Source: Desulfobacteraceae bacterium
GTDB lineage: Bacteria > Desulfobacterota > Desulfobacteria > Desulfobacterales > SKZT01
Assembly: GCA_011389745.1 (NCBI GenBank)
Contig: JAABTQ010000022.1
Span: 1-47,730, forward strand
Direction of reading: 5' to 3'
DNA length: 47,730 bases
The notes under the pieces are model-generated. The model searched no databases. It was not told the DNA's origin and worked only from the letters and a program-made list of their open reading frames with translations. Position numbers and translations under genes: made by a program. Positions 15,467-17,768 of this stretch are shown piece after piece. Each line of letters starts with the position of its first letter. Within the stretch, counting starts at the first letter, position 1.

Positions 15467-16909
15467 ATGAATGATCATTTCTCGGATGAATCTGGAGAAG
15501 AGAGCTTTGCGGAACTTTTAGGTGCCTATGACAAAGGTATGGGCGAAAATCTGCAAGTGGGTGATAAGGTTAAAGGAACCATTATTTCCATTGGTAAGGA
15601 TACAGTTTTTATCGACACCGGAACGAAAATGGATGCTGTAGTCGACAAAAAAGAGCTTCTTGATGAAGATGGTAATTTTCTCCACCAGGAAGGGGACGTC
15701 ATCGAATTGTATGCCGTGGTGGTGAACGAACAGGAAATTCGTTTATCCCATGCGCTATCGGGTGTCGGCGGCCTGGAAATGCTCCGGGATGCCTATGAGA
15801 ACAATATTCCCATCGAAGGCAAAGTAAGTGGAACCTGCAAAGGCGGTTTTCATGTTCAGATTTTGCAAAGGCGTGCCTTTTGTCCGGTAAGCCAGATGGA
15901 TACCAGCTATGTTGAAACTCCGGATGACTATGTTGGCCGGGCCCATGATTTTTTGATTACTCAGTTTGAAAACAATGGTAAAAATATAGTTGTATCAAGA
16001 CGTCTGCTACTCGAAGCTGAAATTGCCGAAAATCGCAGTCGTTTTTTTAAAGAACTGAATGTGGGACAGGAAATGGAAGGCACTGTGGTGCGATTGATGC
16101 CTTACGGAGTCTTTGTGGAACTATTACCCGGAATCGAGGGTATGGTGCATATCTCGGAGTTGAGTTGGTCCCGCTTGGACACCCCGGAAGAAGCAGTTTC
16201 GCATAACCAGAGGATTTTAGTTAAAATTATCGGTGTGGAAGACGCAGAGTCATCAGATCGCAAAAAAATCGCTCTGTCTGTTAAACAACTTCAGAATGAT
16301 CCATGGGACAATGCCAATGACCAGTTTAAGGTGGGTCAAAAACTTGATGGCAAAGTTACACGAATCACCAATTTCGGCGCTTTTGTTGAAATTGCTCCCG
16401 GAATCGAGGGCCTTGTGCATATCAGTGAAATGAGCCACACCCGGCGGGTATTGAAAGTCGAAGATGTTGTCACTGCCGGAGAATCGATTCAGGTAATGAT
16501 CAAGGAACTGGATACCGACCGTCGGCGAATATCACTTAGCATCAAAGATACAGAGGATGACCCCTGGTCGGAGGTGAAAGATAAATTTGTCGTTGGCCAA
16601 AAAATTGAAGGAACCCTTGCAAAAAAAGAATCCTTTGGTTGTTTTATTGATCTGGCTCCAGGTATCACCGGGTTACTGCCCAAATCAAAAATCAAGGCTT
16701 CGGGAACTCCGGAGATCGATAAAGCAAAGATAGGCGATACCCTTACCCTGACAGTAATACAGATCGATTCAGCCTCTCGTAAAATAACCCTTGCCCCGGC
16801 CAGTAGCGAGGAAGAAGTTGATTGGCGAAAGTTTTCCGGAACGTCCGACCAGCCCATGAGCGATCTGGCAGCCAAACTTCAACAGGCTTTAAAATCCTCG
16901 AAAAGTTAA
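15467..16909 (+). CDS. S1 RNA-binding domain protein (ribosomal protein S1-like)
   Basis: A 480-aa protein with five S1/OB-fold repeats at about residues 29-95, 114-178, 198-273, 287-361 and 374-447. Repeats 3 and 4 carry the near-canonical pattern PGIEGxVHISEx. It probably binds RNA in translation, as S1 does. It is shorter than the six-repeat E. coli S1 (557 aa), so it may be a paralogue rather than the main RpsA. Many deltaproteobacteria have more than one S1 protein. The start gives an acidic N-terminus before repeat 1. Monocistronic as far as can be seen. Confidence 0.9.
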   Translation: MNDHFSDESGEESFAELLGAYDKGMGENLQVGDKVKGTIISIGKDTVFIDTGTKMDAVVDKKELLDEDGNFLHQEGDVIELYAVVVNEQEIRLSHALSGVGGLEMLRDAYENNIPIEGKVSGTCKGGFHVQILQRRAFCPVSQMDTSYVETPDDYVGRAHDFLITQFENNGKNIVVSRRLLLEAEIAENRSRFFKELNVGQEMEGTVVRLMPYGVFVELLPGIEGMVHISELSWSRLDTPEEAVSHNQRILVKIIGVEDAESSDRKKIALSVKQLQNDPWDNANDQFKVGQKLDGKVTRITNFGAFVEIAPGIEGLVHISEMSHTRRVLKVEDVVTAGESIQVMIKELDTDRRRISLSIKDTEDDPWSEVKDKFVVGQKIEGTLAKKESFGCFIDLAPGITGLLPKSKIKASGTPEIDKAKIGDTLTLTVIQIDSASRKITLAPASSEEEVDWRKFSGTSDQPMSDLAAKLQQALKSSKS

Positions 16910-17038
16910 GCACATGCACTTCAGATGAGTAACTGGCAGACAAGGAATGACAATTCAATCTTTTCCCCGAAGACGGCGGGACAAAGCGGCTGTTAATTGG
17001 TATATACGTTTGGCGTAGTCTAATGAAAGGAGGTCCAA

Positions 17039-17530
17039 ATGAGTATCGTGCATACAAGTCACATTCGGATTGAAAAACATAAAGGATCGCATCGAACGGC
17101 CCATATTGAAAACTTTTCCAAACCAATTGATTTCGGAATTCATGGAGGAATCAAGGCATTTTATCAGGATAAATACGGTAGAGAACTCACGGGTCCGGAG
17201 TATCCGGCAACATTGGACTATATGATCGCCGGGATAGCGGGTTGACTGACGGGAACTCTTGCAGGCGCACTGGCAGTGCGCGGAATTCCTACTTCGGATA
17301 ACCTGGTCGCTCATGTGGAAGGCATCATCGAAGATATTGACAGTGTAATCAGAATTACTGCAATTAAACTCAATTACCAGTTTAAAATTCCTTCGGGAAC
17401 CCGGGAAAAAGCTCAAAGAGCTTTAGATTCATACGCCGATAGTTGCCCGGCCTACTCTTCCGTAAAAGGCTGTATAAAATGCACCTGGGAAGCGGAAATG
17501 GAGGAAACAGGAGGCCAACACGAAAGTTGA
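17039..17530 (+). CDS. OsmC-like protein, probable selenoprotein (in-frame UGA, Sec69)
   Basis: Reading through one in-frame TGA at 17243-17245 gives 163 aa. The two halves form a single OsmC/Ohr fold: an N-terminal beta segment, PATLDYMIAGIAG-U-LTGTL, VEG..ED, the KLNYQFKIPSGT strand, and ADSCPAY with C136. The TGA falls exactly where the family has the peroxidatic cysteine (A-x-C-L-T). A hairpin follows at 17265-17281. Both halves are in the same frame and a strong AAAGGAGGT precedes the ATG. OsmC/Ohr proteins reduce hydroperoxides with a Cys pair; here Sec69 and C136 would be that pair. A nonsense mutation is the alternative. No selA, selB or selC lies in the window. Confidence 0.85.
17243..17281 (+). 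promoter_or_regulatory. UGA (Sec) codon with bacterial SECIS-like hairpin
   Basis: After the TGA at 17243-17245 and a 19-base spacer there is a perfect 7-bp stem, GCGCACT pairing with AGTGCGC (17265-17271 and 17275-17281), with loop GGC. Bacterial SECIS elements are hairpins just downstream of the UGA, inside the reading frame, with a G at the start of the loop. This one meets those conditions. Only the downstream helix was inspected; longer pairing toward the UGA was not folded. Confidence 0.6.
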
Positions 17531-17606: not shown

Positions 17607-17681
17607 TGGAGGCGGCAACCAGATTCGAACTGGTGAATAGCGGTTTTGCAGACCGCTGCCTTACCACTTGGCTATGCCGCC
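17607..17681 (-). tRNA. tRNA-Cys (GCA)
   Basis: A full cloverleaf can be drawn on the minus strand: acceptor GGCGGCA/TGCCGCC, the T-loop TTCGAAT, and anticodon loop CTGCAAA with anticodon GCA (17649-17647). The discriminator U73 and an encoded CCA end are typical of bacterial tRNA-Cys. It follows tRNA-Gly by about 12 bases in one transcript. Confidence 0.97.
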
Positions 17682-17693
17682 TTTAAAAAAAAA

Positions 17694-17768
17694 TGGAGCG
17701 GGAAACGGGATTTGAACCCGCGACTTCGACCTTGGCAAGGTCGCACTCTACCACTGAGTTATTCCCGC
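17694..17768 (-). tRNA. tRNA-Gly (GCC)
   Basis: The minus strand shows acceptor GCGGGAA/TTCCCGC, a GTTCAAATC T-loop, anticodon loop TTGCCAA with anticodon GCC, and an encoded CCA end. It is the first gene of the two-tRNA transcript. Confidence 0.97.

Follow-up and report, generated by a model that had tools for sequence, protein, structure and literature searches.

A predicted OsmC-like selenoprotein in a Desulfobacteraceae genome and its apparently selenocysteine-only relatives

The 47,730-nt stretch of DNA that we analyzed, hereafter the window, carries on its forward strand a gene (17039–17530) for a predicted OsmC-like selenoprotein, whose in-frame UGA at codon 69 is read as selenocysteine (Sec) with a probability of about 0.93. 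The frame opens with an ATG at 17039, meets a TGA at 17243–17245, and is then open until a second TGA (17528–17530), the terminal stop included in the gene. It encodes 163 residues, with ...MIAGIAG-U-LTGTLAGAL... around codon 69 when the joined frame is translated. The Shine-Dalgarno-like sequence AAAGGAGG (17026–17033, forward strand) can be read 5 nt upstream of the ATG. An earlier note on this DNA had proposed that two same-phase frames separated by one TGA together form an OsmC-domain protein. This is confirmed by a match of the joined frame to the Pfam OsmC family PF02566 (48.1 bits, E 1.7e-12; curated cut-off 27.5) that covers residues 55–151 and extends across the in-frame TGA. With a GC content of 45%, against 43% for the window and 45% for the upstream gene, the gene is not an outlier. 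A promoter and terminator scan returned nothing beyond chance.

The protein is predicted to have the OsmC fold and to place residue 69 in the peroxidatic position. An AlphaFold2 model built with 53 relatives reached a pLDDT of 88.8 and a pTM of 0.84, and the top 50 Foldseek entries retrieved with it were all of the OsmC/Ohr type. VIA-align superposed the model on the OsmC-like structure 3cje with a Z of 12.6 and an rmsd of 2.5 over 125 residues; a likeness to methionine adenosyltransferases was set aside, as its Z of about 7 is the common background level. All 53 aligned family members match PF02566. In sequence alignments, U69 and C136 correspond to the peroxidatic and resolving cysteines of Thermus thermophilus OsmC (1ukk) and of other solved OsmC/Ohr proteins, so that the TGA indeed falls at the redox-cysteine position, as had been claimed. 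In the model, residue 69 lies within a long core helix (59–80) and Cys136 separates helix 122–135 from helix 137–142, a predicted geometry that is that of the Ohr/OsmC peroxidatic and resolving pair. The codon of the predicted resolving cysteine (TGC, 17444–17446, forward strand), part of an invariant CP motif, is TGC or TGT and never TGA in all 162 family loci. Eleven residues are invariant in the alignment of 53 relatives: R19 (codon 17093–17095, forward strand), A21, G33, H35 (codon 17141–17143, forward strand), T58, L59, U69, G72, G95, C136, and P137.

From the fold, the positions of these residues, and the neighborhood of the gene in one lineage, peroxide reduction is the probable activity of the predicted Sec protein. 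The selenolate of Sec69 would reduce a hydroperoxide, or a related substrate in which sulfur or selenium is oxidized; this would leave at Sec69 a selenenic acid that would react with Cys136 to give a selenenylsulfide, from which a dithiol reductant would regenerate the protein. This putative cycle follows from established Ohr chemistry. The neighborhood in question is that of seven Desulfobacterales loci of a single lineage (L071, L090, L096, L102, L106, L110, and L111), where the gene is followed, at a median distance of 27 nt, by a rubrerythrin gene. Six of the seven also have a flavodoxin gene, and thioredoxin-reductase-like genes lie nearby, a cluster that is possibly an oxidative-stress operon including the selenoprotein. 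The rubrerythrin adjacency suits a peroxide role and probably reflects a single evolutionary event; because it is confined to one lineage, it counts as weak support. Clustering of gene neighborhoods revealed no partner common to the whole family. The window copy stands alone between the gene of a five-domain S1 RNA-binding protein (15467–16909, forward strand) and the convergent genes of tRNA-Cys(GCA) (17607–17681) and tRNA-Gly(GCC) (17694–17768) on the reverse strand.

Alternatively, the selenoprotein may act on another substrate, such as an electrophile or an oxidized form of sulfur or selenium, or serve as a thiol-disulfide relay, a more tentative proposal that departs from the main reading in activity alone and leaves the Sec assignment intact. 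Ohr/OsmC peroxidases combine an arginine with a catalytic glutamate located ten residues before the peroxidatic cysteine. Here this glutamate is not in place: the −10 position is occupied by Leu59, and a near-invariant Asp60 is found at −9. The invariant Arg19 may be the counterpart of the arginine. The invariance of R19 and H35 and the want of a consistent gene partner also speak for another activity. YhfA-type OsmC proteins form a branch without the Ohr arginine and glutamate, whose activity is uncharacterized (PMC8945050), and an OsmC homolog devoid of thiol peroxidase activity has been reported (PMC4069020). Against such a substrate or relay function stand the conserved pair geometry and OsmC fold and the redox genes adjoining the rubrerythrin lineage's copies. 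Of the selenium-dependent hydroperoxide reductase using Sec69 and C136 that the earlier note had envisaged, the Sec reading and the invariant partner cysteine thus hold, whereas peroxidase activity is a prediction from homology of fold and residues.

The genome that holds the window, that of a sulfate-reducing bacterium (3.6 Mb, 99.9% complete, 2.45% contamination), encodes what Sec insertion calls for, as the note had suggested checking: selA (601 bits), selB (373 bits), a tRNA-Sec with a UCA anticodon (74 bits), and two divergent selD genes (364–367 bits; L030, G000:C30:8096–9022, and L031, G000:C45:101430–102350). Both selD copies themselves contain an in-frame TGA where SelD is known to carry Sec (AGUASK and CGUAAK, respectively). 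A decoding of UGA as another amino acid, by reassignment to Trp or Cys or by stop suppression, would equally keep the frame open, but it is highly improbable: this complete sel gene set is present, Cys136 is never encoded by TGA, and the code is not generally reassigned, since TGA ends 10 of the 40 long open reading frames (ORFs) of the window as an ordinary stop.

We propose, with strong computational support, that UGA69 is read by SelB and tRNA-Sec under the direction of a hairpin located downstream, within the coding region. This SECIS-like element, GCGCACU-GGC-AGUGCGC (17265–17281, forward strand), starts exactly 19 nt past the TGA and consists of two arms (17265–17271 and 17275–17281) enclosing a GGC loop (17272–17274); the apical loop, with its GG, begins at about +26. 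Perfect stems of 7 bp or more around a loop of 3 to 8 nt turn up in the same position range at 1.5% of random window positions. When 55 nt were folded and compared with shuffles, the z score was −2.8 after TGA69 and −0.2 after the terminal TGA, a difference consistent with the two UGAs being decoded according to their context. The family comprises two sequence types, type A (ULTGT), which includes the window protein, and type B (UMMGT). The perfect 7-bp stem with a GGC loop at +19 described previously is exact for the window. The helix conserved in its type A relatives, also at +19, has 6 bp and UGGNN as its loop; only some members add the seventh pair (U-A). Across 33 type A sequences, compensatory changes have preserved the hairpin: 99% of cells are paired and 32 cells are compensatory, a level reached by none of 500 shuffles, and the signal is lost when the partner strand is slid. 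Three pairs have changed on both sides, with GC replaced by AU in 11 sequences and the outer pair occurring as CG, GC, or GU. Type B has a 7-bp stem about 7 nt nearer to the UGA (93% paired), whose outer pair is broken in some members. RNAalifold recovered the helices of both types unprompted. In three divergent type-A-like loci (L056, L053, and L073, with UMTGT or UMLGT), the downstream hairpin resembles neither conserved form.

The covariation of the hairpin as RNA also bears on the idea that UGA69 is a true stop, with a separate C-terminal polypeptide restarted at a GTG at 17276 or two subunits that associate. An 84-residue ORF (17276–17530) does exist; however, no Shine-Dalgarno sequence is visible upstream of 17276, and a restart there would drop residues 69–79 of the core helix, which are conserved in relatives. 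Translation in two pieces is thus very unlikely, and UGA69 is better explained as a Sec codon.

The conservation of this codon across relatives carries the Sec reading beyond the window. The codon aligned with position 69 is TGA in all 162 homologous loci, which represent 128 distinct proteins; neither a Cys codon nor any other sense codon occurs there in these loci, and Cys occupies the position in the remote OsmC proteins of solved structure. The note had named both a residue other than Cys or Sec in homologs and a different sense codon in close relatives as observations that would speak against it; among the 162 loci neither was found. The loci were collected in several ways. The scan of GTDB species relied on two peptide patterns, both outside the Sec position, and confirmed 289 stretches, of which the best 80 were kept; scans at the level of the class, of the phylum, and of the Planctomycetota supplied further loci. 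When stops were read through in a six-frame search of 39 relatives, 5 proved to carry the gene, each with exactly one TGA. Two loci contain a second TGA, which is their final stop. Full-length family matches score above ~160 bits and have the TGA, and they are separated by a gap from generic OsmC proteins, which score at most ~50 bits and lack it. A locus with TGC at this position (L181), considered as a Cys form of the family, was rejected as a generic OsmC protein (31 bits). The clade therefore appears to be Sec-only, and Sec appears to be obligatory in it, where Sec-only means that no Cys form exists among the 162 loci, a count outside which stand 209 lower-scoring relatives from the genome collection. 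On either side of the TGA, substitution patterns give dN values far lower than dS, which shows that both parts are under purifying selection. Seen in a single genome, such a TGA could pass for a pseudogene or sequencing error, in which a Cys codon mutated to TGA left two dead fragments. This reading is refuted to near certainty, since 128 distinct proteins spread over many phyla share the position of the TGA and selection continues past it.

OsmC-like selenoproteins were first predicted in 2005 from the Sargasso Sea, as three sequences of COG1765 with a UxxT motif and Cys homologs (PMC1088965), and the family was found again in the GOS survey (PMC2398784). Among the 119 families inventoried in 2026 (PMC13188914), it is the sole OsmC entry that we came across. 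The note's statement that such proteins had been predicted elsewhere is thus accurate for a family on record, but the window protein falls outside the NCBIfam model NF041052 (OsmC_like_Se), which describes an OsmC-related (seleno)protein, with 21.3 bits for a cut-off of 95. Among 53 family members, 19 match this model at an E value of 0.01 or better, the best being 1.5e-06. These weak scores indicate a separate OsmC branch whose Sec occupies the equivalent place in the structure. The NF041052 and Sargasso OsmC-like proteins, possibly one and the same family, share with the window family the OsmC fold, the PF02566 domain, Sec at the peroxidatic position, and a downstream bacterial SECIS. True NF041052 members have their TGA in ULLTQ or UMFSQ, fitting or close to UxxT, whereas the motif of the window family is UxxG, usually UxxGT (ULTGT or UMMGT). 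Furthermore, the Sargasso family has Cys homologs (PMC1088965), and none was found for the window family. According to the inventory's rule that a different Sec motif defines a distinct subfamily (PMC13188914), the window family would be a new one. True NF041052 selenoproteins also occur in the same phylum as the window genome (L146 in G580:C113, L147 in G423:C73, and another at G423:C247), G423 having two TGA copies. Compared with the Ohr/OsmC organic hydroperoxide reductases, the window family has the same fold and the same positions of the peroxidatic and resolving residues, but it uses Sec instead of Cys, shares ~10–20% identity with them, and does not conserve the glutamate. Like the YhfA-type OsmC proteins, it combines two redox residues with an incomplete Ohr Arg/Glu set (PMC8945050); unlike it, Escherichia coli YhfA has no Sec described.

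This subfamily is widespread: a single genome collection yielded 289 candidates, and 162 loci were read. As the NCBI family models do not cover it, its genes are at risk of split or truncated annotation. The 2005 screen kept candidates with at least two Cys homologs and more than 50% of TGA/Cys pairs (PMC1088965), a filter that disfavors Sec-only families, so that the clade would tend to escape published screens for TGA/Cys pairs. Other Sec-only families may be hidden by the same filter. A family without a Cys form also offers a testable case of why sulfur cannot replace selenium.

The 162 loci span the Desulfobacterota, Planctomycetota, Acidobacteriota, Actinomycetota, and other phyla. Among the best 80 of the 289 stretches, carriers include bins assigned to the Planctomycetota, Acidobacteriota, Actinomycetota, Rokubacteria, Methylomirabilota, Chloroflexota, and Nitrospirota, and one named strain, Desulfosarcina cetonica JCM 12296 (L078), has the gene. 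Within the class of the window genome, the scan gave no signal of co-occurrence between selA and the gene, since almost every genome there has selA (360 of 389). The cross-phylum set says more: as a raw count, selA was detected in 23 of 27 carrier genomes, and the four others may be incomplete bins. The phylogenetic tree supports both a 20-row clade that includes the window protein (100/100) and an 89-row clade almost wholly of type B (100/99), but it does not show type A as a single clade. The nearest relative of the window protein (73%) comes from a Planctomycetota bin, in a clade rich in Planctomycetota, although bin labels are not fully reliable, and the gene was found in only 2 of 392 Planctomycetota genomes. 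The congeneric sister genome (G001, 95% complete) lacks it. This patchy distribution points to likely horizontal transfer, seemingly among Sec-using bacteria; no copies were found in a plasmid search. Taken together in a more speculative model, which we hold only tentatively, the family would be a Sec-obligate OsmC branch outside current selenoprotein models that has spread horizontally among Sec-using phyla, its two main types having differently placed SECIS hairpins; selenium would be chemically required, no Cys form surviving, and the substrate would differ from the usual organic hydroperoxides.

Near the OsmC gene of one relative (L023, from ~398, forward strand), a DsbA-like frame contains an in-frame TGA within DYTUPWCYF and likely encodes another selenoprotein, of the UxxC kind. 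Judging by eye, we take it to be of the 2-hydroxychromene isomerase/FrnE type.
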